34,585 nucleotides of DNA, taken from positions 1 through 34,585 of IMG/VR virus record IMGVR_UViG_3300042860_003674; one strand, 5' to 3'. Below the pieces are notes generated by a model. The model did not search any database. It had not been told where the DNA came from and saw nothing but the letters and a program-made list of their open reading frames with translations. Positions within the stretch are counted from its first letter, which is position 1. Each line of letters begins with the position of its first letter. Source of the stretch: a virus. The position numbers were made by a program, and so were the translations under genes. Positions 9,608 to 31,365 of this stretch are shown in pieces.

Positions 9608-10390
9608 ATGAACTGGCTGCGGCTCTATCACGAGGTGCTCGACGACCCGAAGGTGCAGCGGCTCGACCCGGTGGTGTTCAAGGCGTGGGTCAACCTGCTC
9701 TGCCTCGCGAGCCGCAGCCAGCCGCGCGGGGTGCTCCCGGGAATCGAGGACATCGCGTTCGCGTTGCGGATGGGAACCGACGAAACGAATGCCGCCGTGG
9801 AGCTCCTGGTGGCTCGTGGGCTGATCGATCGCACCAAGAGCGGGCTAGCGATGCACAACTGGGAAGCGAGGCAATTCAAGTCAGACAACGTTTCAGAGCG
9901 CGTGCGTCGTCATCGACAGGCAACGTCTGGTGAAACGTTACATGAAACGTTGCGCGATAAGACGGCTGTAACGGATGAGCAACGTTCCACGGAACGGAAT
10001 AGTAACGCCCTAGATACAGAACAGAACAGAACAGAAACAGAGCAGAGCAGAGGAGATATGGGCGCTAGCGCGCCAGCAAAAGTGACGCCGATCGAGAAGG
10101 GGAAGCGGGGGACGAAGGCGCCGAAGCATTTCGACCTCGATGCGGAGCACTACGACGCGGCGGAGGCGCTGGGGTTCACGACGCAGCAGACGGTGGACGA
10201 GACGGCGCGGTTCCTCGACTGGCACCGGGCGAAGGGGACGACGCACGTGGACTGGACCGCGGCGTGGCGGAACTGGATGCGGAAGGCTCGGGACCTGAAG
10301 GCCGAGCGCGGCTCAAAGCAGACCGATGCGGACTACTGGGCGGAGTTCGACCGGCTGACGGGCGGCGGTGATGTGGAGGTGGGGCCGTGA
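9608..10390 (+). CDS. Replication initiator, lambda-O / DnaD-like
   Basis: 260 aa; ATG 9608 after GGAGGG. Residues ~1-100 form a winged-helix replisome-organiser domain: MNWLRLYHEVLDDPKVQRL, FKAWVNLLCLAS, EDIAFALRMGTDET, LVARGLIDR. A low-complexity, less GC-rich middle (about 95-150) contains the DNA repeats of a probable origin. The C-terminal domain (about 165-245) has FLDWHRAKGTTHVDWTAAWR followed by NWMRKA, a motif common at the end of phage replication proteins. It would bind its own coding sequence and recruit the helicase loader encoded next, as O and P do in lambda. Confidence 0.8.
   Translation: MNWLRLYHEVLDDPKVQRLDPVVFKAWVNLLCLASRSQPRGVLPGIEDIAFALRMGTDETNAAVELLVARGLIDRTKSGLAMHNWEARQFKSDNVSERVRRHRQATSGETLHETLRDKTAVTDEQRSTERNSNALDTEQNRTETEQSRGDMGASAPAKVTPIEKGKRGTKAPKHFDLDAEHYDAAEALGFTTQQTVDETARFLDWHRAKGTTHVDWTAAWRNWMRKARDLKAERGSKQTDADYWAEFDRLTGGGDVEVGP
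9887..9991. other. Candidate replication origin: AACGTT iterons inside the initiator gene
   Basis: The palindrome AACGTT occurs at 9887, 9934, 9946 and 9981 with a variant AACGTC at 9922, and a GTTCCACGGAAC inverted repeat spans 9984-9995. The two central copies sit in TGAAACGTTR repeats 12 nt apart. The area is richer in A/T than the rest of the early region. Iterons in the O-type gene beside a purine-rich tract match the lambdoid origin layout. Confidence 0.5.
10016..10051 (+). repeat. Pentamer repeat (ACAGA/GCAGA, seven copies)
   Basis: Five ACAGA and two GCAGA units in tandem with one extra A, next to the AACGTT iterons. In lambda-type origins an A-rich, strand-biased tract beside the iterons is where the helix opens; this tract could play that part. 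It encodes a polar linker (DTEQNRTETEQSRG). Confidence 0.6.
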
Positions 10391-10917
10391 CCTCGTTGAA
10401 GCAGGCGCTCGCGGAGTTGCGGACGGCGTTTCCGCAGCGGGATGTGCCGGTGGCGACGCTGGCGTTGTACGCGCGGCAGCTGGCGGACCTCGATGAGGCG
10501 GCGGTGGTGGACGCGGTGTACCGCCTGATCCGGACGGCCAAGTTCTTCCCGACGATTTCGGAGATCCGGGAGGCGGCGGTGGCCGGCGGGCCGATGGACG
10601 GCCTGGCGGAGGCGGCGTGGGCGGAGGTGCGCAAGGAAGCGGCGCGGGTGGGCTGGAACCGGGGGCCGGTGATGCGGAACCGGGAGCTGGTGGAGGCGGA
10701 GGCGCCGGTGTTTGCGAACCCGATCACGGAGGCGGCGGTGGCGTCGATGTCGTGGCGGCTGATCTGCCTCGGGGAGCAAGCGGAGGTGCGGGAGCAGTTC
10801 CTGTGGACGTGGAAGAACCTGTCGAGCGGGCTGGTGAAGCGCGGGCAGGCGGCGGACGGGGGGCTGAAGGGGCTGCCGGGGGCGTCGGATTTGGTGGCGC
10901 TGAAGAGGGTGAAGTGA
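10387..10917 (+). CDS. Putative replicative helicase loader (G39P/P-like)
   Basis: 176 aa; GTG 10387 overlaps the initiator stop. An N-terminal helical part has LYARQLADLDEAAVVDAVYR and then FFPTISEIREAA; the tract of a helix followed by F-P-T-I-x-E-I-R is the hallmark of helicase loader/inhibitor proteins such as SPP1 G39P and relatives. The gene follows the initiator directly, the order expected for O/P-type pairs. No ATPase motif is present, so it would act as a structural loader and not a DnaC-type one. Confidence 0.65.
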   Translation: MTSLKQALAELRTAFPQRDVPVATLALYARQLADLDEAAVVDAVYRLIRTAKFFPTISEIREAAVAGGPMDGLAEAAWAEVRKEAARVGWNRGPVMRNRELVEAEAPVFANPITEAAVASMSWRLICLGEQAEVREQFLWTWKNLSSGLVKRGQAADGGLKGLPGASDLVALKRVK

Positions 10918-11816
10918 TGGTGACGAAGAACGACCAGGTCGGGCGGTCCGGCAAGACGCTCGACAAGCACGTCGAAATGCGAAAGCTATTTGGGATGGCG
11001 CTCACGTTCACGAAGAACCTGCGTGCAGGGAAATACCCGCATGAGAAGACGCTGTCCAAGTTTGTCTATGTCGACCTGCACGCTGGATGCGGTGTTTATC
11101 CGGACGGAACAATCGGAAGCCCGCAGTTGTTTATCGACGAAGCCGAGCGCCTCGGTGAGCCGTATCACGCGATTCTTTGCGAGGTCGGCGCCGAGCAACT
11201 GATGAGCTTGCACTCACTTTACGGCAGGAATCCGAACGTCACGGTGGTCGGTGGTGATCACATGCGCACCGTTGAATCTGTGCGTTCGGTTATCCAGCAG
11301 GTTCGTGGCGACCGTGGGATTGTCTACGGCCTGGTGCTTGCCGATCCGAATGGAGCTGATGTTCCGGTGGAGGTGATCAACCAGATTGCCTCTGGATTCA
11401 AGGGCTCGCGCATTGACGTTGCGATATCGACGGGAGCGACCTCGTTTAAGCGTCGTGATGGCCAGCGGCTTCCTGGCGTGTTGGGTGGGATTAACAAGCG
11501 GTACTTCAAGTGTTTTTGGGATATCGGGGGGAAGTGGCAGTGGCAGATCTGGGTCGCGTCGAACTGGACGAATGCCGGAAAGAGCTTCCCCGCTGGAGCT
11601 CACTGGATGGACAGCAAGGGGAATCAAGAGGACGCGTTACTCAAGGCGGCTTTCACGAGCAGAGAAAGAGCGGTCGGCCTGCATCTCCGTATCGAACCTA
11701 CCGCGAGTATCTCCGTCATCCCGAGTTCCGGAAGGTCCGAGCGCAGGTCTTCTCCCGATCAGGAGGTTGGTGCGAACGATGCCGGGTTGCCCCAGCAACT
11801 GAGCCTCATCACCTGA
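10917..11816 (+). CDS. tcmP: Three-Cys-motif partner protein (TcmP-like), 299 aa
   Basis: ATG 10917 overlaps the previous stop (TGATG). Residues ~48-70 give FVYVDLHAGCGVYPDGTIGS, the family's N-terminal signature (normally YiDgFaGpG...GSP); later come LVLADPNGADVPVEVINQIA and FWDIGGKWQWQIWVASNW, resembling the family core. TcmP proteins are known as regular neighbours of phage Gp37/Gp68 three-Cys proteins, and such a gene follows here. The fold looks nucleic-acid- or SAM-binding, but the reaction is unknown. The last ~45 residues read through the HNH frame and look like chance coding. Codon use (more A/T at third positions) differs from neighbours, suggesting recent acquisition. Confidence 0.75.
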   Translation: MVTKNDQVGRSGKTLDKHVEMRKLFGMALTFTKNLRAGKYPHEKTLSKFVYVDLHAGCGVYPDGTIGSPQLFIDEAERLGEPYHAILCEVGAEQLMSLHSLYGRNPNVTVVGGDHMRTVESVRSVIQQVRGDRGIVYGLVLADPNGADVPVEVINQIASGFKGSRIDVAISTGATSFKRRDGQRLPGVLGGINKRYFKCFWDIGGKWQWQIWVASNWTNAGKSFPAGAHWMDSKGNQEDALLKAAFTSRERAVGLHLRIEPTASISVIPSSGRSERRSSPDQEVGANDAGLPQQLSLIT

Positions 11817-11908
11817 TCTATCCGAAGTGGGGCACGTTTGACCTGCCGGAGAACCTGATTGCGGTGTGCCACCACTGCCACTGCGAGATTCACGACAAGC
11901 CGGACTGA
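11540..11908 (+). CDS. HNH endonuclease, overlapping tcmP in the -1 frame
   Basis: The domain in the last ~75 residues is clear: YREYLRHPEFRKVRAQVF, a CERC zinc pair, HHLIYP, ENLIAV, and CHHCHCEIH, i.e. a complete H-N-H/zinc-finger nuclease. The start is uncertain. GTG 11540 has a GGGGGGA purine run 7 nt upstream, but lies ~275 nt inside tcmP. No ATG, GTG or TTG exists nearer the domain. Because the frame is -1 to tcmP, a TcmP-HNH fusion by frameshift, or a single-base indel joining two genes, is an alternative. It would nick or cut dsDNA. Many phage HNH proteins assist packaging; this one sits instead in an accessory cassette. Confidence 0.7.
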   Translation: MADLGRVELDECRKELPRWSSLDGQQGESRGRVTQGGFHEQRKSGRPASPYRTYREYLRHPEFRKVRAQVFSRSGGWCERCRVAPATEPHHLIYPKWGTFDLPENLIAVCHHCHCEIHDKPD

Positions 11909-11916
11909 GGTGCGTG

Positions 11917-13458
11917 ATGGCAGATACGACGCGACAAACAATCACGATAAGCTGGGTGCACATCGACAATGTCAAGACCGATCCGGTGCTTGCTGACATT
12001 TGGCCGGTGCACGCGTTGACGGTCGACGCGATCGCCGAGGCGATGCGTGAGCACGGGTACGACCGCGCCGAGCCGATCGTGCTGTGGCACGGCCGCGACG
12101 TGGTGGTCGACGGGCACACGCGCCTGGCGGCGGCGAAGGCGGCCGGCCTCGATCAGGTCTACGTCGCCAAGACCGAGTTTGCCGACGAAGACGACGCGGT
12201 GCTTTACGCGATCCAGCGACAGAAGAACCGGCGCAACATTGACCCGGCGCGGCTAGTCACGCTGGTGCCGGACATTTATGCGCGCATGAAGCGGCAACGC
12301 GGCGGAGATCGCAAGAGTCAAGAATCAAAAACCTCCATGGAGGTTTTTGATCGCAAGAACACGGCTCAAGAAGTTGCCGAAGTAGTAGGGGTATCTAAGG
12401 CTCAAATCGAGCGCATCGTGGCGATTGCCGACGAGCCGGAGCTGGTTGAGCTGGTGGCTCGCGGCGAGACGTCGATCCGGGCGGCCTACGACCAGGTGCG
12501 CGAGAACAAGCGGATCGCCGTCGAGGCTGCGACGACGTTCGAGCCGCCGGTCAAGCCGACGCCACAGCAGGCGCTGCCGGAGACCAAGCGGTACACGATC
12601 GACGAGGTCGGCGGCGCGGCCGTTCGCGGCGCCTACACGATCGCCGAGTGGACCGCGCTCGACGATCGGCAGCGTCACCAGCTGCTGACCGCGGCGCCGG
12701 CCGAAGCGGCTGCCCAGTTCAACCGGACCAACGACAACGTCGAGTGGGCGCTGTGGACGTGGAACCCGGTCACTGGCTGCCTGCACAACTGCCCCTACTG
12801 CTACGCGCGGGACATCGCGGCGCGCTTCTACCCGCAGGGTTTTGTGCCGGCGATCGTGCCTGGCCGCCTGCATGCCGCGCGCCACATGAAGGTGCCGGCC
12901 GCAGCTGCGACCAACCTCGGCGAAAAGAACGTCTTCGTCTGCTCCATGGCCGACCTGTTTGGCAAGTGGGTGCCGCAGGAGTGGATCGATGCCGTGCTCG
13001 CCGAGGTGCGCGGCAATCCGCAGTGGAACTTCCTGTTTCTGACCAAGTTCCCGCGCCGGTTGTCGCAGCAGGAATGGCCGGACAACGCGTGGGTCGGCAC
13101 GACGGTCGACAAGCAGTTCCGGGTCGAGATTGCCGAGAAGTCGTTCCGCGATGTGCGGGCGGGCGTGAAGTGGCTGAGCTGCGAGCCGATGCTTGAACGG
13201 CTGACCTTTTCGTCGCTTGAGATGTTCGACTGGGTGGTGGTGGGCGGGTCGTCGAAGTCGACGCAGACGCCGGAGTTCAACCCGCCGATCGAGTGGTTTG
13301 AGCATCTGTTGCGTCAGGCGCGCGACGCGGGCTGCAAGGTGTACCTGAAGCCGAACTTTGTCAATCGGTGGCGGGAGTACCCCGGATTTGACGAGGTGAC
13401 AACGGAGCACGGGATTGATACCGGGTGGGTTGATGGCGAGCCTGAGGTAGAGCGGTGA
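11917..13458 (+). CDS. ParB-domain / Gp37-Gp68 (radical-SAM-like) fusion protein, 513 aa
   Basis: ATG 11917 follows GAGG with 6-nt spacing. Residues ~10-110 are a ParB/sulfiredoxin-type nuclease domain (VVVDGHTRLAAAKAAGL, with the GHTR motif at 66-69), then a KorB-like helix-turn-helix (TAQEVAEVVGVSKAQIERIV, about 149-168). Residues ~270-500 are the phage Gp37/Gp68 domain (PF07505, also called DUF5131): TWNPVTGCLHNCPYCYAR carries Cys288, Cys292 and Cys295 in the radical-SAM CX3CX2C spacing, with VCSMADLFG, WVGTTVD, LSCEPML and WVVVGGSS following. Partner of TcmP. A 28-bp palindrome lies in the linker DNA. It may target or modify nucleic acid; no reaction is established to my knowledge. Confidence 0.8.
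   Translation: MADTTRQTITISWVHIDNVKTDPVLADIWPVHALTVDAIAEAMREHGYDRAEPIVLWHGRDVVVDGHTRLAAAKAAGLDQVYVAKTEFADEDDAVLYAIQRQKNRRNIDPARLVTLVPDIYARMKRQRGGDRKSQESKTSMEVFDRKNTAQEVAEVVGVSKAQIERIVAIADEPELVELVARGETSIRAAYDQVRENKRIAVEAATTFEPPVKPTPQQALPETKRYTIDEVGGAAVRGAYTIAEWTALDDRQRHQLLTAAPAEAAAQFNRTNDNVEWALWTWNPVTGCLHNCPYCYARDIAARFYPQGFVPAIVPGRLHAARHMKVPAAAATNLGEKNVFVCSMADLFGKWVPQEWIDAVLAEVRGNPQWNFLFLTKFPRRLSQQEWPDNAWVGTTVDKQFRVEIAEKSFRDVRAGVKWLSCEPMLERLTFSSLEMFDWVVVGGSSKSTQTPEFNPPIEWFEHLLRQARDAGCKVYLKPNFVNRWREYPGFDEVTTEHGIDTGWVDGEPEVER
12324..12351. repeat. 28-bp perfect palindrome inside the parB-like coding sequence
   Basis: The sequence begins ATCAAAAACC, is centred on CCATGG, and ends GGTTTTTGAT; every base pairs with its mirror. 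It encodes the linker between the ParB domain and the helix-turn-helix (SKTSMEVFD). It could be a parS-like binding site, a terminator-like hairpin (A run before, T run after) or a recombination scar. Confidence 0.85.
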
Positions 13459-13625
13459 TCGAGCTGGTGAAGCTGGAGGCGCGGCTGGTGCGGTTGGACG
13501 AGTTGATCCGGTTCCTGGAGCGGAACCCGCTGGTGCCGGGCGGGCAGCGGGAGTACGAGGCGGCGATCCGCGAGTACCAGTCGGTGGACGCGCGGATCGA
13601 GCGGTTGCGGAGGGAGTTGGCATGA
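13455..13625 (+). CDS. Small coiled-coil protein, 56 aa
   Basis: GTG 13455 overlaps the previous stop (GTGA) and TGA 13623-13625 overlaps the next ATG (ATGA), so it fits the tightly coupled operon exactly. The product is two amphipathic helices joined by NPLVPGG, forming a helical hairpin. No function recognised. Confidence 0.6.
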   Translation: MIELVKLEARLVRLDELIRFLERNPLVPGGQREYEAAIREYQSVDARIERLRRELA

Positions 13626-13819
13626 GCGAGCGGTTTGCGATTCACCACGAGTGGGAGGACCTGCGGTTGAGCGTCGCCCTGGCGGAGGGCGGCGAGCTGG
13701 TGCGGGTGCAGATCGAGGACGAGCGCGAGGTGCTGGCGATCCCGATGGAGATCGATGCGCCGAGCGCGCGGCGGCTGGCGTACGCGTTGCTGGCGCTCGC
13801 TGAGGAGGTGGCGCAGTGA
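13622..13819 (+). CDS. Unknown small protein, 65 aa
   Basis: ATG 13622 overlaps the upstream stop by 4 nt. A beta-sheet-like N-terminal part (HHEWEDLRLSVALAEGGELV) precedes a C-terminal helix (ARRLAYALLALAEEVAQ). The layout recalls the 73-aa product at 7986-8207. No catalytic motif. Confidence 0.65.
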   Translation: MSERFAIHHEWEDLRLSVALAEGGELVRVQIEDEREVLAIPMEIDAPSARRLAYALLALAEEVAQ

Positions 13820-14157
13820 CTGAGGCGAGGGGCGAGTACGTGACGACGGGGAGGCTGCCGGTGGTGTCACCTCCGTGCCCGGTGTGCGGGGTGGATCTGG
13901 CTCCGGAAGAGGTGTTTGCAGGGCTCTGCTACTTCTGCCAGCAGTGGCCGGCGCCGGTGATCGACGCGCACTTGCATGCGGACAACGAGGACCGGGAGCG
14001 GGTCAAGGTGCGGCTGATCGCCGTCGGCAACAACCAGTTCGAGTTCCGGATGTGCCGGGTGCGCGGCGACTGGGTCGAGGTGGAAGACACGAAGCACGGC
14101 ATGGCGTTCTGGGTGGCGCTCCGGCATGTGGTGACGGTGTGGGAGGAGCGGGTGTGA
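13816..14157 (+). CDS. Zinc-finger protein, 113 aa
   Basis: GTG 13816 overlaps the previous stop (GTGA) after a GAGGAGG site. CPVC near residue 22 and CYFC near residue 37 form a zinc ribbon at the N-terminus. The C-terminal ~70 residues are beta-rich (VRLIAVGNNQFEFRMCRVRG). It could bind nucleic acid; no family recognised. Confidence 0.65.
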   Translation: MTEARGEYVTTGRLPVVSPPCPVCGVDLAPEEVFAGLCYFCQQWPAPVIDAHLHADNEDRERVKVRLIAVGNNQFEFRMCRVRGDWVEVEDTKHGMAFWVALRHVVTVWEERV

Positions 14158-14414
14158 GCAATCTCAAGTTCGAGCATTACCCGGGTGTTTGGCCGGCGTT
14201 TCTTGTTCGCGCTGACGTTGATCGGCTGAAGGCATGCCCTGAAGCGTGGGAGATCGTGACCACCGCCCAGAAGGTTATTGATCTGATGAACGCCAGCGCC
14301 GCGACCTATCGCAACGGCACCGAAGAAGTCCAAAGAGCGCTGGCCGAAGCCTATCTCTTGCCAATTAGGATCTTACTTCGCGAGGTTCAGGTCAGGGAGG
14401 GGATGCCTCGGTGA
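14154..14414 (+). CDS. Unknown helical protein, 86 aa
   Basis: GTG 14154 overlaps the stop of the zinc-finger gene. The product is mainly helical (WEIVTTAQKVIDLMNASAAT, VQRALAEAYLLPIRILLREV). Its codon use is closer to A/T-ending than its neighbours, hinting at a separate origin. No function recognised. Confidence 0.65.
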   Translation: MSNLKFEHYPGVWPAFLVRADVDRLKACPEAWEIVTTAQKVIDLMNASAATYRNGTEEVQRALAEAYLLPIRILLREVQVREGMPR

Positions 14415-14626
14415 TGCAGACGTTGCGGTGCTACTCGTGCGCGAGGTCGTTGCCGGACAGCGCGTTTCTGGAGGATGCGGCGCGAACGGCGCGACGGTGC
14501 CGGGCGTACTGGTGCCAAGCGTGCCAGGAGCGGGGCGAGGCGACGAGCGCGGACGATGCTGTTGCGGGCAACTACACGCGCTGGGCGCTCGATGACGACG
14601 GCGTGCCGTATCGGCTGCGCGGCTGA
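14411..14626 (+). CDS. Small zinc-finger protein, 71 aa
   Basis: GTG 14411 or the adjacent ATG 14414; both follow a GGGAGGGG site. Cysteine pairs CYSC (near residue 7) and CQAC (near residue 36) plus an extra Cys give a treble-clef or zinc-ribbon layout similar to the N-terminal half of endonuclease VII-like proteins, but no nuclease motif follows. Possibly a small nucleic-acid-binding protein. Confidence 0.65.
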   Translation: MMQTLRCYSCARSLPDSAFLEDAARTARRCRAYWCQACQERGEATSADDAVAGNYTRWALDDDGVPYRLRG

Positions 14627-15021
14627 TGGTGATCGAGGTGGTGGTGCCGATGACGCCGCCGCGGGAGTGCTCGCCGAATGCGCGGGTGCACTTCTCGCGC
14701 AAGGCGAAGGCGGCGCGCTCGCTGCACCAGGCGGCGGCGCTGGCAACGAGGGAAGTGCTCCTGGCTGACCCGCTCGGGCGGGACGCGCTGGCGAAGGCGC
14801 GGCGGATTTGCTACCGGCTGACGGTGTCGTGGGAGCCGGGGAGACGGGGGACGATCGACGAAGACAACACGCTGGCTTCGGCGAAGGCGCTGCTCGATGG
14901 GGTGGCGCAGGCGCTGGGGGTGGACGATCGGCGATTCCGGGTGCGCGGAGTCGAGATCGATCGGGTGACGCGGCGGGGCGTGACGGTAGTGACGCTCTGG
15001 CCGGAGGAGCAGGACCTGTGA
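14626..15021 (+). CDS. rusA: RusA-like Holliday junction resolvase
   Basis: 131 aa; ATG 14626 overlaps the previous stop. The RusA pattern is clear: N-terminal SPNARVHFSRKAKAARS, then DEDNTLASAKALLDGVAQAL followed by GVDD. Asp78, Asp80 and Asp91 with Lys87 are candidate catalytic residues, matching the acidic triad and lysine of E. coli RusA. It would resolve branched DNA produced by recombination-dependent replication before packaging. Confidence 0.85.
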   Translation: MVIEVVVPMTPPRECSPNARVHFSRKAKAARSLHQAAALATREVLLADPLGRDALAKARRICYRLTVSWEPGRRGTIDEDNTLASAKALLDGVAQALGVDDRRFRVRGVEIDRVTRRGVTVVTLWPEEQDL

Positions 15022-15617
15022 GCCACGAGTTCAAGCGAATCGAGGAGTTCGTGGGGTGGGCGTACCGGAAGTTCGAGGTGGACGGTGCGAGCCTCGACCG
15101 GGTGGTGGACGAGGCGATGCGCTCGTTCGGGCCGGACGGGCAGTTCATCCAGGAGTTCGTGTTCGACGCGTGGAAGTTCTTCGCGATCGAGGCGATGACC
15201 GGGCACCAGCCACGGGCGGTGCCGGTGCTGCCGCTGCCGAACGAGAAGGTCGAGGTGGCGGTGGAGATCGACGAGCACCAAGGGAACGAGCGAACGCGGT
15301 TGACGGCGGCGCGGCGCCAGCGCCTGGTGGAGTTGGTGCGCAACGATGAGAAGCCGTGGGCGCGGTGGATGGAGCGACACCCGGAGAACGGCGTGCCGAT
15401 GCGGCTGCTGAACATGACGAAGGAGCAGCTGCTGGCGGCGGCGACGATCCGGGACCACGAGAGCGCGGAGGCCAAGAAGCGGGCGACGTTGTGTCGCCGG
15501 GTGGCTGATCAGCTGGCGCCGGGGCAACGGGCGCGGGAGGTGATGACCGAGCAGGATCTCGAGCGGCTCGACGACGAGCTGGAGCCGAAGCCGACGCCGA
15601 TTCGGGCGCTGGCGTAG
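15018..15617 (+). CDS. Unknown early protein, 199 aa
   Basis: GTG 15018 overlaps the rusA stop. The N-terminal half is acidic and helical with several aromatic positions (FKRIEEFVGWAYRKFEVDGA, FIQEFVFDAWKFFAIEAMTG); the C-terminal half is basic and helical (MTKEQLLAAATIRDHESAEA...). No motif identifies an activity. Position after RusA suggests a DNA metabolism accessory role, which is inference only. Confidence 0.7.
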   Translation: MSHEFKRIEEFVGWAYRKFEVDGASLDRVVDEAMRSFGPDGQFIQEFVFDAWKFFAIEAMTGHQPRAVPVLPLPNEKVEVAVEIDEHQGNERTRLTAARRQRLVELVRNDEKPWARWMERHPENGVPMRLLNMTKEQLLAAATIRDHESAEAKKRATLCRRVADQLAPGQRAREVMTEQDLERLDDELEPKPTPIRALA

Positions 15618-15638
15618 CTGACAGGGAGAGGAACGACC

Positions 15639-16397
15639 ATGAGCACGACGATGCAGAAGCCGCAGCTCTTGAACCCGGACGAGATCCACGGGATCTTCGA
15701 CGCGCTGGACGAGGAGCTCTTCATCCGCTACCGGGTGGAGTGCCAGTTCACGGACAAGCTGATGGGGGGCACGCCGCAGAAGGCGGACCTGATCGCCGGC
15801 TGGATCCGGGCGCGGGCGGGCGTGGACGAGGACGCGGAGCTCGCGGCGATGGTGCGGCGGACGCTCGGCGAGATCGGGGTGGACACGCCGGAAGAGGCGA
15901 CGCTCGACGAGATCATCGCGGTCTCGGAGAAGGTGGGGGCCGAGCGGCACGGCAACACGTTCAAGCGCGACGCCAGCGGGCTGTACATCGAGTCGCGGCA
16001 GGTGAAGGCGGGCTTCAAGGAGGCCACCTCGGTGCTCTTCGCCGGCGAGCGGTGGGGGAAGACGAAGAAGGGGCCGAAGAACGCGCTGAGCGAGTGGATC
16101 TTCGTCGAGGGGCAGCGCATCCACCTGGGGCGGACGGAGCCGGACGGGACGTGGACGCAGCACGGCGTGGTGAGCGGGCCGAGCGGGAGCCGGAGCACGC
16201 TGACGCAGTATGACTACGTGGAGCAGCCGCGGATCACGTTCGTGCTGAAGAGCCTGGTGGACCCGCAGACGGGGAAGGAGCGGATTGAGCAGGAGCAGTG
16301 GAAGCTGCTGCTGACGTATCTGCAGTACTCGGGGCTGGGGGCGCTGCGCTCGCAGAGCCACGGGCAGTTCAAGGTGATGGTGTTCCAGAAGATCTAG
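15639..16397 (+). CDS. Unknown 252-aa protein with a C-terminal RAMP-like glycine loop
   Basis: ATG 15639 follows an AGGGAGAGG site. The N-terminal ~120 residues are mixed alpha/beta and acidic; the C-terminal ~120 have VKAGFKEATSVLFAGERWGK, RITFVLKSLVD, and end with LLTYLQYSGLGALRSQSHGQ followed by FKVMVF. That last block, a helix then G-x-G-x-x-R-S-x-x-x-G then a strand, resembles the glycine-rich loop of RAMP (Cas5/6/7-type) RNA-binding folds. There is no CRISPR array or other cas gene in the window. It is the last gene before the repeat region. Related proteins occur in other phages in my recollection, but with no known function. Confidence 0.65.
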   Translation: MSTTMQKPQLLNPDEIHGIFDALDEELFIRYRVECQFTDKLMGGTPQKADLIAGWIRARAGVDEDAELAAMVRRTLGEIGVDTPEEATLDEIIAVSEKVGAERHGNTFKRDASGLYIESRQVKAGFKEATSVLFAGERWGKTKKGPKNALSEWIFVEGQRIHLGRTEPDGTWTQHGVVSGPSGSRSTLTQYDYVEQPRITFVLKSLVDPQTGKERIEQEQWKLLLTYLQYSGLGALRSQSHGQFKVMVFQKI

Positions 16398-16506
16398 TCG
16401 AGGCGGAGATTGTCTGGCCGGCGGGGCGCGATGCGTCGCCGCCGGCCTTCGACACACAGCGATTCACGCCGATCGACGATTCACGCCAACGCACGACGTC
16501 CCGCCC

Positions 16507-17542
16507 GACTATTCAAGACTGCTCAATTCTCGCCCGGCCGACTTGTCTTCGCAGGTCATGCCCATGCGAGCGACTTTTCATTGCACCTCCTCGCCTGACT
16601 GTTGACTTCACGGGCCAGCCCCACACCCGACCTGCGACCTCACGTGCCATGGCACATCCTGATCATGCCGACATGTCGTTGCGACACCCGCCAAGGCACC
16701 ACTACTGACGGGCCATGCCGAGACCGTGCGCCGCAGGACCCGCAGGCCGTGCCACGTGACTTGCCACGCCAGCACGACGCATGCCAGCAGCAGGCGACAA
16801 TACGCGCCCATGCATCGCGTCCTCGCCATGCCACGTGACTTGCCGTAGCCAATCACCGCATGCCGACGCAGGCGACAATGCGAGCCGTCCCATAGCCTCT
16901 CGCATCCAGGCGGCGCCAGCGACGTCACACATCCCTGCGCGACCAGGCGCCACAAGCGACGTTGCATACCCGCGCATGCCGACTACCCGGAGCTGTTCTT
17001 TTCACTGCCGCTCGTGCCATTCGACAGGCCATATCGCCACGGGGACGCATCACTGACGAAACGCTCGACGGGCCTTCCCCAGCCGGCACAGGACTCGCCT
17101 GGCCTGGTCATTGCTGCCGACTTGTCATGTCTACCTGCCTCATGCCGTGTCTCTCCCAACGACTGGCCTAGACTTGCCGTGCCACTCGACGGGCCAACTC
17201 ATCCCCGGGACCAGCCGTGTCCAACGCGATCGACTATGCACTTCAAGCCAGGACCCTTCGTGGCGACTAGCCAATTCCCAACCTGCCATTGCCAGCGACT
17301 GGTCATCTCACCGCGCGCCATCGCTTGGCTGCCGACTTGCCAACACATCACCGCACGCATCCTGACCCCCGCTGCCCGGTGCATCCGACTAGTCACCGCC
17401 ACGCCAGTCCGTGCTCGACGCGCGACTTATCTACGCTCCGCCATTCGCACCTGAACAGCACAGACGACTAGCCAGCTCTTGTCAGGACGCACGACTACCC
17501 GGCCCGGGTCTCGCCATGGCTAGCCGTGCCTTGCGACTACGC
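16507..17542 (+). repeat. Degenerate array of GACNNGYC boxes in a 1.3-kb gene-free region before terminase
   Basis: From 16398 to 17685 no frame has both a good start site and protein-like sequence. Instead the plus strand carries 16 matches to GACNNGYC: 16540, 16670, 16707, 16758, 16837, 17023, 17067, 17119, 17161, 17171, 17188, 17265, 17297, 17334, 17387 and 17466, plus looser GACTATTC-, GACTACCC- and GACTTATC-type boxes at 16507, 16572, 16981, 17232, 17424, 17493 and 17535. Most neighbouring spacings are 32-33, 42-44 or 51-53 nt (whole helical turns) or 17, 27, 37 nt (half turns). Larger repeats support common descent: 16505-16580 aligns with 17230-17305. A second motif, CATGCC, recurs eight times in the first two thirds. 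Position suggests cos/pac; a structured RNA is another option. Confidence 0.7.
16751..16908 (+). repeat. Diverged ~79-bp tandem duplication
   Basis: GCCACGTGACTTGCC occurs at 16751 and 16830, and GCAGGCGACAATRCG at 16790 and 16868, giving two head-to-tail units of about 79 bp that agree at roughly two thirds of positions. It lies within the GACNNGYC array and shows how that array grew. Confidence 0.75.
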
Positions 17543-17685
17543 AAGCCACGCCCGGCGCCGATCCGCACATCTCTAGCCGACGGGGCGCGGTGGGGTTGTC
17601 AGGCCTCGGTATGCTCGAGAGCAACGGCCCCGCTCCGCCCTGGGCACTGGACAGCCGGTGCTAGGGTGGAGACGGGGAACGCCGC

Positions 17686-18072
17686 GTGGTGGTTGGGGGC
17701 GGTGTGGGTAAGGGCAACTGGAGCCAGTGGACCAAGAAAAAGGAGCAGGAACTGCTCGACCAGCTCCGGAGCGGGAAGACCGTGGCCGGGGCTTGTCGCG
17801 CCTGCGGGGTCCAAACATCGACGTTTTATTTCCAGAAGCAGCGACACCCGGAGTTTGCCGCGGCGGTGGCCGAGGCCATCGACGAGGGCACGGACCATAT
17901 CGAGGACGACCTGCTCGACCTCGGGCGCGATGGCAACGTCGTCGCGCTGCTGGCCACGTTGAAGGCGCGGCGCCCGGACAAGTGGCGCGAGAAGAGCACG
18001 CACGAGCACACCGGGCCTGGTGGCACCGCGCTGACGATCGTGATCGCCGAGCGCGAGGATGGCCCGCAGTGA
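17686..18072 (+). CDS. terS: Terminase small subunit
   Basis: 128 aa from GTG 17686, 7 nt after GGGGA; a GTG at 17704 is an alternative. Residues ~12-50 form a helix-turn-helix: WTKKKEQELLDQLRSGKTVA then GACRACGVQTSTFYFQ, the DNA-recognition domain of small terminase subunits. The next helices (FAAAVAEAIDEGTDHIEDDL) would oligomerise. The C-terminus overlaps TerL by 4 nt. It would recognise the packaging site, for which the repeat array just upstream is the obvious candidate. Confidence 0.8.
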   Translation: MVVGGGVGKGNWSQWTKKKEQELLDQLRSGKTVAGACRACGVQTSTFYFQKQRHPEFAAAVAEAIDEGTDHIEDDLLDLGRDGNVVALLATLKARRPDKWREKSTHEHTGPGGTALTIVIAEREDGPQ

Positions 18073-28226: not shown

Positions 28227-28543
28227 GGGACCGGCCCGACCGCCGGTTTCAGTTCCGCCTCGCTCTCGCCCTCGGGATGCCGGTAGAGGAGATGCTCGAC
28301 CGGATGACGTGGCGAGAGTACCTCGAGTGGGGCGAGTACTACGGTCTCGAGCCGTGGGGTGAGGAGCGCGGTGATCTGCGCTCCGGCATCGTCGCGTCGG
28401 TGATCGCGAACGTGAACCGCGACGCGAAGAAGCAGCCGCAGGCGTTCGAGCCGGCAGACTTCATGCCGTATTACGAGAAGCCGAAGCCGACCCCCGAGCA
28501 GCTCGCTCACAAGATCCGCGCCGCGCTCGGAGGGTACCGCTAA
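27888..28543 (+). CDS. Tail assembly chaperone GT (programmed -1 frameshift product)
   Basis: After a -1 slip at 28217-28223 translation continues as IRDRPDRRFQFRLALALG and then MPVEEMLDRMTWREYLEWGE to 28543, giving about 218 aa. The downstream frame has no SD of its own near an early start and its sequence between 28226 and 28277 is protein-like, supporting fusion. The T part (LEPWGEERGD, then FMPYYEKPKPTPEQ) is typical of T extensions that contact the tail tube protein. The gene joins the tape measure ATG in a TAATG overlap. Confidence 0.85.
28217..28223 (+). promoter_or_regulatory. Slippery heptamer for -1 ribosomal frameshift (GGGAAAA)
   Basis: G GGA AAA is in the X XXY YYZ phase of the G frame (zero-frame codons GGA at 28218 and AAA at 28221, stop TAA next). 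Slippage yields GGG AAA ATA and enters the T frame. It is at the exact position expected between tail chaperone genes. Confidence 0.9.
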
Positions 28544-31365
28544 TGGCGACCGTTATCTCGACGATGGGCGTCAAGATGGACCTCGACGCGTCGGGGTTCA
28601 ACACGAAGATGGACGATGTCGGGCGAAAGCTCGACGCCGTCGGGACCCGACTCCGGGACATCGGGACCACGCTGACGACGCGCTTCACCGCGCCGATCGT
28701 CGGCGGGTTCGCCCTCGCGGTGATGGCCGCCTCAGATCTCAACGAGAGTATGAGTGCGGTGGGCACCGTATACGGAGCTGCCGCTGACGGGATCATTACT
28801 GCTTCCGAAGACGCGGCAGGCAGCGTAATGATGAGTCAGCAGCAGTACCTCGCAGCGGCTACGCAATTTGGTGTGTTTGGTCAGGCTGCGGGAAAGACTG
28901 GCGACGATCTCGCAAAGTTCGGCAACGATAGCATTAGAGCCGCTGCCGACCTCGCATCTTTTTACAACGTGCCTGTCGATGAGGCTCTCGATGCAATCGG
29001 GGCAGGACTTAGAGGAGAAGCAGAGCCCCTATCTCGATTTGGCATCATCATGAACGAGGCAGCCCTGGAAGCCTATGCTTTGGAGGCAGGCATCTGGAAT
29101 GGTGTCGGAGCTATGACCGATCAGCAAAAGGTCGCGGCTCGTCAAGGCTTCATCATGGCCAACCTCGGAGCGGCTAACGGCGACGCTGCTCGCACTGCCG
29201 ATAGCTTTGCGAATCGCATGAAAATACTCAAAGCGACTTTGGTCAATTTTGCCGCTAGCATCGGCACAATTATTCTACCGTATGCTATCAAGCTCGCAGA
29301 CATGCTGCAAAATCTCCTCGAACGGTTCCAGGGAATGAGCACGAGGATGAAGACAATCGTCGTCATCGTGCTCGCGGTCGTCGCGGCTATCGGTCCGCTG
29401 CTCCTCGCCCTGGGCGTGTTCGCGAGCGCGCTCTCCACGGTGATCGCCCTGCTCCCAAAGATCAAGATGTTCTTTAACGTTTTGCGCGCCGGGATGCTGT
29501 CGAGCCTCGGCCCTATCCTCCTCGTCGTCGCCGCGATCGCGGCGATCTACTTTATCTGGACACGGGATCTGTTCGGCATCAAGACGAAGATCACGAACTG
29601 GTTCAACGTGTTCAAGGCTCCGGGCGGCGGACTCGACCGGCTCAAGGCGAAGTTCGGAGAGTTCAAGGACACGCTCGGCGGGCTCTATCGCGCAGCCCTG
29701 CCGAAGATGAGGGCCGGCATCGATAGTCTCCGGCAGGCCCTTGTCGCGCTCTGGGACCGCGTCAAAGGGCCGCTAGGCTCGTTCGTGAAGCTCATCGGCG
29801 ACGGTGTGGTGAAGGCCGTCCGGTGGGCGATGGACAACCTCTACCGCCTCCAGCCGCTTCTTGACGCGATCGGGGCGTACATCCACGCGGTCGTCGCCCT
29901 CGTTCGCGCGCTGTTTGCGGGCGACTGGTCGGCGGCGTGGGATGCGTTCAAGAACGTCGTCGAGACCGCGAGCATCGCGGCCCTCGAGGCGTTCCGGCTC
30001 GCCTGGGACGCGATCAAGGGGATCGCCTCCCGGATCGACTGGGGTGCGCTCGTCTCCGGAGCCGCGGGGCTCGGGTACAAGCTCCTCGGCTACATTGACG
30101 ACCTGGGCGGCATCCTGTGGGGATGGGCGAAGGCGGGGGCGACGTTCCTCGCGATGAAGCTCGCAACGCTGTGGGATGACCACAAGAGCAAGATCGGCGA
30201 GGTCGCCGGGTTCCTTGTCAGCAAGATCGACGACGTCGGGCTCCTGCTCTGGGGATGGATTCAAGCCGGCGCGACGTGGATGGCCGGGAAGCTCGCCGGG
30301 CTGTGGGACGAACACGGGGACACGATCAAGCAACTCCCGGGGCGGTTCGTCGCCGGGATAGGGGCCGTCGGTTCGTTCCTCTGGGGATGGTTAGAAACAG
30401 GCGCGAAGTGGATGGCGGGGAAGCTCGCCGGGCTCTGGGACGCGCACAAGCAGACGATATCGCAACTCCCGGGACGCTTTATCGCGGGGATAGGCGCGGT
30501 CGGTGCGTTGCTTTGGGGATGGTTAGAGACGGGCGCGAAGTGGTTCGCGAAAAAAGTCTCCGGGCTTTGGGATGCGCACAAGGACACGATCTCACAACTC
30601 CCCGGGCGATTTGTCGCGGGGATAGGCGCGATCGGTGCGCTGCTCTGGTCGTGGGCGAAGACCGGCGCGAAGTGGTTCGCCGGCAAAGTCTCCGGGCTCT
30701 GGGACGCGCACAAAGACACGATCGGACAGATCCCCGGACGGCTCATTACGGCGATGGGCGCGCTCGGTGCGCTGCTGTGGGGATGGGCGAAGACGGGCGC
30801 ATCGTACCTCGGGACCCAGGCGTCAAGGCTGTGGGACAACGTGAAGCCGCAGATCGCCGCGATCCCGGGCGCGCTGATCTCGGCGATGGGCGGGCTCGGC
30901 GGGAAGCTCTACGAATGGGTGAAGACGGGGGCGAGCGACGCCCTCGACTCCGTCACCGGCGCGGGATCGGACGCCCTGACGAGCATGCGGTCGATCGGCA
31001 CGCAACTCGGTGGCGCGCTCAAGTCCGCCTTCAACGGTGCCCTATCGGGGATCGGCGACTACATCATCACGAAGATCAACGGCATCATCCGCACCGTGAA
31101 CGGGTGGATCGAGAACGCGAACAGGCTCCCCGGCGTGGACATCCCCTACATCCCGACGATCGGCGGCGGGAGCACAATCCCCGGCGGCGGCGGTAGTGGC
31201 GGTGGACAGGGAGGCTTTGTCGCGCAGGCCCTCGGCATGGGTGGCGCGCAGGTGATCAACGCGACAATCAACATCAACGTGACCGGGGTCGATAGCCCGA
31301 AGACAGTCGCGCAGGAGGTCTACGCGACGTTCTCCCGCGAGCTCGGTCTGCGAGGTGCGATCTAA
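28543..31365 (+). CDS. Tape measure protein
   Basis: 940 aa. N-terminal LDASGFNTKMDDVGRKLDAV helical domain followed by APIVGGFALAVMAASDLNES, typical of TP901-type tape measures. Two long hydrophobic stretches (about residues 265-305 and 320-345) may pass the host membrane during DNA entry. From about residue 525 to 800 there are 44-residue repeats with conserved LWGW and GLWDAHKDTI elements. A Gly-rich segment and a beta-type C-terminus (INATININVTGVDSPKTVAQ) end the protein. Length would predict a tail of roughly 140 nm by the usual ~1.5 angstrom per residue rule. Bases ~28740-29330 have a different codon style. Confidence 0.93.
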   Translation: MATVISTMGVKMDLDASGFNTKMDDVGRKLDAVGTRLRDIGTTLTTRFTAPIVGGFALAVMAASDLNESMSAVGTVYGAAADGIITASEDAAGSVMMSQQQYLAAATQFGVFGQAAGKTGDDLAKFGNDSIRAAADLASFYNVPVDEALDAIGAGLRGEAEPLSRFGIIMNEAALEAYALEAGIWNGVGAMTDQQKVAARQGFIMANLGAANGDAARTADSFANRMKILKATLVNFAASIGTIILPYAIKLADMLQNLLERFQGMSTRMKTIVVIVLAVVAAIGPLLLALGVFASALSTVIALLPKIKMFFNVLRAGMLSSLGPILLVVAAIAAIYFIWTRDLFGIKTKITNWFNVFKAPGGGLDRLKAKFGEFKDTLGGLYRAALPKMRAGIDSLRQALVALWDRVKGPLGSFVKLIGDGVVKAVRWAMDNLYRLQPLLDAIGAYIHAVVALVRALFAGDWSAAWDAFKNVVETASIAALEAFRLAWDAIKGIASRIDWGALVSGAAGLGYKLLGYIDDLGGILWGWAKAGATFLAMKLATLWDDHKSKIGEVAGFLVSKIDDVGLLLWGWIQAGATWMAGKLAGLWDEHGDTIKQLPGRFVAGIGAVGSFLWGWLETGAKWMAGKLAGLWDAHKQTISQLPGRFIAGIGAVGALLWGWLETGAKWFAKKVSGLWDAHKDTISQLPGRFVAGIGAIGALLWSWAKTGAKWFAGKVSGLWDAHKDTIGQIPGRLITAMGALGALLWGWAKTGASYLGTQASRLWDNVKPQIAAIPGALISAMGGLGGKLYEWVKTGASDALDSVTGAGSDALTSMRSIGTQLGGALKSAFNGALSGIGDYIITKINGIIRTVNGWIENANRLPGVDIPYIPTIGGGSTIPGGGGSGGGQGGFVAQALGMGGAQVINATININVTGVDSPKTVAQEVYATFSRELGLRGAI
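30061..30960 (+). repeat. 132-bp periodic repeats in the tape measure gene
   Basis: The codons for L(W/Y)-x-W (LWGW, LWSW or LYEW) begin at 30115, 30247, 30379, 30511, 30643, 30775 and 30907, exactly 132 bp (44 codons) apart each time. The middle copies (30379-30770) are nearly identical in DNA, showing recent duplication; outer copies are diverged. Confidence 0.85.

Follow-up and report, generated by a model that had tools for sequence, protein, structure and literature searches.

What is the function of the cassette formed by tcmP, an HNH reading frame and a parB-DUF5131 gene in a phage early operon that also encodes a single-stranded DNA-binding protein, a replication initiator and a RusA-like resolvase? 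The cassette occupies positions 10917-13458 of the + strand, in the order given, of the 34,585-base virus record IMGVR_UViG_3300042860_003674, which was analyzed as a whole and is referred to here as the window; L-numbers such as L008 denote related loci. TcmP and Gp37/Gp68 (DUF5131) proteins occur together widely, with no function assigned to the pair. The window cassette is a divergent member of these known, uncharacterized pairs, and its HNH domain is a recurrent third part. The answer that we prefer, with slightly more doubt than confidence, is that the cassette would be a mobile phage-borne DNA base-modification module that marks DNA at the replication fork and has an optional nuclease.

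When viral contigs were scanned with an alignment of DUF5131, 143 loci matched, 80 of which were listed; 83 DUF5131 loci were examined, with a few contigs counted twice and some TcmP-less loci cut by contig ends. TcmP was encoded directly upstream in 73/83 of these loci, as expected from the preliminary description, which had called TcmP and Gp37/Gp68 genomic partners. HNH was present in 30/83, and four entries had TcmP and HNH as a single open reading frame (ORF). A scan with HNH alone returned 49 loci, three of them from the window's phage, and both TcmP and DUF5131 were found in 46. Two of the other three are short, with TcmP present and DUF5131 beyond reach. Because the co-occurrence is reciprocal, the three parts belong together and, as judged from these sequences, the cassette is not a chance assembly; a lack of conserved co-occurrence, which had been named in advance as grounds for abandoning the idea, was not seen. 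It is also unlikely that the HNH is a stray homing endonuclease, since loci selected by HNH hold both partners in 46/49 cases.

Other arrangements were noted among the related loci. In Dulem virus 34 (L145 1002-3729) a gene for a DNA cytosine methyltransferase is closely followed by the DUF5131 gene, and the annotation shows no tcmP. Another tcmP-DUF5131 pair (L010 2247-4321) is preceded by ORFs that resemble, by eye, a DNA methyltransferase and a ParB protein. In Gordonia phage Fairfaxidum (L144 3013-4954) gp43 is TcmP, and tcmP and DUF5131 are convergent.

The features of the window cassette are as follows.

10917-11816, + strand: tcmP ORF (ATG 10917 to TGA 11816), predicted RlmJ-like S-adenosylmethionine (SAM)-methyltransferase fold; methyltransferase domain at ~10917-11680
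11534-11542, + strand: alternative HNH starts GTG 11534 and GTG 11540, 3' of a G-run at 11526-11531; the product would have 122-124 amino acids
11648-11654, + strand: weak candidate for a -1 slip site, G_GCT_TTC read in the tcmP frame; imperfect, with A-site re-pairing only
11690-11908, + strand: HNH domain (beta-beta-alpha-Me, McrA-like), read -1 to tcmP in a frame that is open from 11495
11793-11813, + strand: QQLSLIT, C terminus of the 0-frame tcmP ORF, resembling a clamp-binding QLxLF tail
11917-13458, + strand: parB-DUF5131 (Gp37/Gp68) gene, 513 amino acids
11944-12531, + strand: ParB N-terminal-like domain and helical part, from PHROG matches and the structure model
12721-13383, + strand: predicted radical-SAM core (DUF5131) with a conserved NRTNDN..W.W.WNPVTGC stretch
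12778-12801, + strand: CX3CX2C cluster motif CLHNCPYC, from the sequence

The ORFs at 10917-11816, to 11908 and at 11917-13458 bear out the cassette as first described. The statement that TcmP and Gp37/Gp68 enclose the HNH has the order right, but tcmP and HNH are not plain adjacent genes, because the HNH overlaps in another frame.

The DUF5131 region of the window protein matched PF07505 with 137.6 bits (cut-off 28.9). The CX3CX2C cysteines are invariant in 56 relatives. The structure model of the whole protein (predicted local distance difference test score, pLDDT, 86) has a barrel at the DUF5131 core, with weak fold matches to RlmN and spore photoproduct lyase (E ~2e-3); the score for PF04055 is under its cut-off. 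DUF5131 is therefore predicted from motif and fold to be a radical-SAM enzyme. The extra ParB domain that had been proposed for this partner is clear in PHROGs (PHROG 4715, E 4.4e-9) and in the model, where the ParB_N fold matches 5k5d (E 1e-8, TMt 0.62), and weak by Pfam/NCBIfam. This region also matches ParB domains fused to DNA methyltransferases (PHROG 498, PADLOC MTase_II). Pfam recognized ParB_N in 17/56 relatives, and helix-turn-helix (HTH) domains occur in a few others. In L008 (5371-6792), the closest DUF5131 relative, a different N-terminal region replaces ParB, and the N-terminal module thus seems to be swapped between phages. DUF5131 was found in 133 records of isolate phages; a search of open-access papers for literature on DUF5131 found nothing.

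Window TcmP scored 40.9 bits against TIGR04474, under the curated cut-off of 53, and by this measure is a divergent relative of the family, not a strict member. Scores of 61.2 bits were obtained for the related TcmP of L047 and of 109.1 bits for Gordonia gp43. The window protein does adjoin a three-Cys (CX3CX2C) protein. Structure prediction, which had been suggested for both partners, gave a SAM-methyltransferase fold for TcmP beside the radical-SAM core of DUF5131, and so the other ground named in advance for abandoning the idea, structures with no SAM/FeS sites, did not arise either. The TcmP model, built from 51 sequences (pLDDT 88.7), has RlmJ as its best PDB matches (E 5.6e-7, template modeling score ~0.5), and TcmP is accordingly modeled as an RlmJ-like SAM-methyltransferase fold protein; support for the RlmJ likeness at the sequence level is weak. 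Motif I of the window protein is DLHAGCG, similar to that of E. coli RlmJ, the m6A2030 23S rRNA methyltransferase, and is kept as DxxAGxG in relatives. TcmP differs from RlmJ in having DPNG for DPPY at motif IV, a radical-SAM partner and, in relatives, a clamp-like tail. Tblastn searches of isolate phages found neither window TcmP nor the TcmP-HNH fusion of L090, and scans of genome contigs found no relatives.

The C termini of many TcmPs read QASLF, QPSLF, QQPLPF, QLALGL, QTHLGF, QGQMDL and similar. The beta-clamp consensus is QLxLF, usually C-terminal (PMC4549789). A QxxLF-type or QxxLx[FLW]-type motif was found in the last ten residues of 13/68 TcmPs against 0.74 expected (maximum of 5 in 3000 shuffles), and LF in the last ten residues of 14/47 TcmPs against 2.0 in shuffles, 1/68 in the DUF5131 control and 16/808 other ORFs, in a set in which the pattern had been noticed before it was tested, so that the test is not fully independent. 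These tails suggest that TcmP is recruited to the sliding clamp in the relatives that carry them, and they offer a concrete lead to the replisome as the site of action of TcmP/Gp37-Gp68. Insertion sequence transposases with QLxLF tails have the same motif at the extreme C terminus (PMC4549789); TcmP is no transposase, and its clamp binding is only predicted. The window's QQLSLIT was set aside as a clamp motif because the HNH codons for ATEPHHL give rise to it, probably as a by-product, and neither L008 nor L011 retains it.

In the window, HNH codons begin at 2 mod 3 and tcmP codons at 0 mod 3, placing the HNH in the -1 frame, and the HNH motif begins at 11690, within the last ~126 nucleotides of the tcmP ORF. 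The HNH frame has no start codon near the domain, the only upstream ones being GTG/TTG at 11510-11540. The motif residues and zinc cysteines of an HNH endonuclease are present (CERC..EPHH..ENL..CHHCH). The Pfam score of 18.5 is under the cut-off of 21.4; PHROG HNH matches reach E 1.7e-10. Among solved structures the domain is closest to McrA (6ghc); it is alike in sequence to the HNH domain of EcoKMcrA (E 2.9e-7), but here it is a small domain tied to TcmP, and the remainder of McrA is unmatched.

Among the window, L008 and L011, amino acid identity is 58-61% in the HNH frame and 26-32% in the tcmP frame, and changes are concentrated at HNH codon position 3, a pattern that marks the HNH frame as the constrained one in the overlap. 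The 0-frame extension of tcmP past ~11690 is unlikely to be a selected protein because its identity is so low beside the ~60% of the HNH frame; its GC contents by codon position (0.56/0.67/0.60) are not coding-like. A sequencing or assembly error as the source of the frame change was rejected because positions 10133-17813 are identical in three other IMG/VR contigs (L002-L004). The -1 frame is also found in L008 and L011.

The HNH arrangements in the related loci are of three kinds: in most the HNH has its own start ~45 nucleotides or less from the domain, in L012, L013, L090 and L125 it is fused in frame to TcmP, and in others it is out of frame with no near start. In L008, L092, L109 and L117 the HNH lies in the -1 frame with no ATG, GTG or TTG upstream of the domain in that frame, and CCCTTTC or CCCTTTT is found in phase 20-47 nucleotides before the HNH motif (L092 also has TTTTTTG), against a background for CCCTTTY of 2/20,401 in-phase positions in TcmP bodies. 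These four loci thus combine an in-phase heptamer with the lack of any other start for the downstream frame, as expected of -1 frameshifting. The HNH of L023 and L029, which belong to another clade, is in the +1 frame, and the sequence CTC TTT TGA stands at the tcmP stop, directly ending the QASLF/QPSLF tail; the nearest HNH-frame starts are at least 42 nucleotides upstream. This arrangement is like the RF2 type of frameshift.

By the supported branches of a quick TcmP tree, itself of modest support, the -1 arrangement must have changed no fewer than three times, and L109 clusters with L090, where the fusion is in frame (branch support 86). It is likely, as far as sequence can tell, that the slippery and RF2-like sites of these relatives serve programmed frameshifting that makes a TcmP-HNH fusion. 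One frameshift site common to all loci was rejected, since many HNH genes begin at a start codon of their own, some are fused in frame and shifts of both directions are present. The fusions and predicted frameshifts suggest that the nuclease and TcmP work as one unit. A few loci have the HNH elsewhere in the module, either upstream of tcmP (L082) or after DUF5131 (L138/L139).

For the window itself the balance tips slightly toward an HNH that stands alone, either as an independent gene with a start inside tcmP or as the frameshifted remnant of a past fusion. GTG 11534 and GTG 11540 lie behind the G-run, in many relatives the HNH gene has an ATG or GTG of its own no more than 45 nucleotides from the domain, and the window has no perfect slippery heptamer; yet the HNH frame is conserved, with most differences at its third codon position, L008 lacks any start, and CCCTTTY is in phase in four relatives. 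Expression of the window HNH through programmed frameshifting is possible, if rather doubtful, and we set its probability no higher because a perfect heptamer is lacking and the GTG starts may be used.

Gene order, co-occurrence, folds, tail enrichment, frame relations and slippery sites, as given by sequence or model, lead us to propose the following for the cassette. DUF5131 would be a radical-SAM enzyme placed on DNA through its ParB or other DNA-binding N-terminal domain, with TcmP, an RlmJ-like SAM-binding methyltransferase-fold protein, as its regular partner. Since many TcmP relatives have a clamp-binding-like tail, the pair would act at the replication fork, where TcmP and DUF5131 would mark freshly replicated phage DNA. 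An McrA-like HNH, optional and tied physically or genetically to TcmP, would add cleavage or nicking, most simply of unmarked DNA. In several relatives a single message would yield both TcmP and TcmP-HNH through programmed frameshifting (-1 at CCCUUUY, +1 at CUC UUU UGA), giving the nuclease to a fraction of TcmP molecules. Here we infer the DNA substrate, the chemistry, clamp binding, the occurrence and rate of frameshifting and the HNH target. If the proposal is true, phages carry a radical-SAM DNA-marking system with a nuclease dosed by recoding.

Several observations weigh against this proposal. The locus counts come from related sequences and are not independent, and RlmJ and RlmN, the fold matches of TcmP and DUF5131, are RNA enzymes. 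Motif IV of TcmP is DPNG in 22/51 sequences, varies after the aspartate and is not the catalytic DPPY. The clamp-like tail is absent from some TcmPs, and window tcmP has no convincing one. At 11570-11690 the window has no in-phase X_XXY_YYZ slippery heptamer, only G_GCT_TTC. Stem-loops downstream in L008, L011, L092 and L109 have z of -2.0 to -3.0, but these segments were picked by eye, and the RNA structure of the 80-nucleotide stretches downstream of the slip sites is not unusual.

A stronger form of the DNA-marking proposal, a phage system resembling restriction-modification, is unlikely on present evidence: here a clamp-tethered TcmP and a ParB-guided radical-SAM enzyme would mark replicating DNA, and a frameshifted HNH would cut unmarked host or rival DNA. 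The associated idea that DNA-modification proteins gained a nuclease by recoding on several occasions seems to us equally speculative. The preliminary description had left the choice between DNA or RNA modification, defence and self-marking of phage DNA; co-occurrence and folds give partial support to an idea of this kind, and RNA is now the less favored substrate. DNA is favored because of the ParB/HTH domains, the McrA-like HNH, the placement in a replication operon and, in relatives, the clamp-like tails.

Modification of tRNA or rRNA by TcmP and DUF5131, shielding phage translation from host attack, would agree with the best PDB matches, RlmJ for TcmP and RlmN for the DUF5131 core, but we consider it improbable given those same ParB or HTH domains on DUF5131, the tails on TcmP, an McrA-like HNH as third partner and a location among DNA replication genes.

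Equally improbable is anti-phage or superinfection defence in phages and prophages, in which TcmP and DUF5131 would detect or harm DNA entering the cell and the HNH would cleave it. In PADLOC the two are entered as the candidates PDC-M30/M41, and of 32 P. aeruginosa strains with a predicted PDC-M30, 68.8% were phage-resistant (PMC10855318). Window DUF5131 scores 130 bits against PDC-M41B and 121 bits against PDC-M30B, and one PDC-M30A model is matched by 15/51 TcmP relatives. However, the PDC systems are unvalidated candidates, window TcmP reaches only E 0.03 against PDC-M30A, and the HNH and ParB are in no PDC-M30/M41 match. In Fairfaxidum, tcmP and DUF5131 are flanked by integrase/HTH genes on one side and the immunity repressor on the other, where prophage-encoded defence is typically located, whereas the window cassette is in an early replication operon and not a lysogeny locus.

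DNA repair at the fork, with a radical-SAM lyase-like enzyme reversing a lesion, the HNH nicking for excision and clamp recruitment like that of mismatch-repair proteins, is very unlikely, for although spore photoproduct lyase is among the weak DUF5131 fold matches and TcmP tails are clamp-like, the SAM-binding methyltransferase fold kept in TcmP would have no obvious role there.

Compared with described TcmP (TIGR04474)-Gp37/Gp68 DUF5131 (PF07505) pairs, the window has both families side by side and a DUF5131 well above its cut-off, but differs in a TcmP under its cut-off, the HNH as third member and the ParB N terminus on DUF5131; the relatives differ in their clamp-like tails. These tails and the recurrent linkage of HNH by fusion or frameshift look new, no report of them having been found in a limited literature search.

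The preliminary description had also noted that tcmP and HNH are richer in A/T than the early operon around them, which the GC content at third codon positions confirms: it is 0.70 in tcmP and 0.69 in HNH, and within parB-DUF5131 it is 0.79 over the ParB part and 0.87 over the DUF5131 part, against mostly 0.89-0.98 for neighboring early genes, with the exception of the replication gene at 9608-10390 (0.79). The AT-richer codon style of the cassette is consistent with its acquisition from elsewhere.

Between the early and late genes of the window, ~1.2 kb at 16400-17680 has no convincing ORFs and contains direct repeats that are imperfect, among them GCCGTGCCACGTGACTTGCC and GCTGCCGACTTGTCA; it may be an origin or have a regulatory role. 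Rfam gave no match anywhere in the window. The tape measure protein encoded at 28543-31365 has distant relatives mainly in Gordonia, Arthrobacter and Microbacterium phages, hinting at an actinobacterial host.

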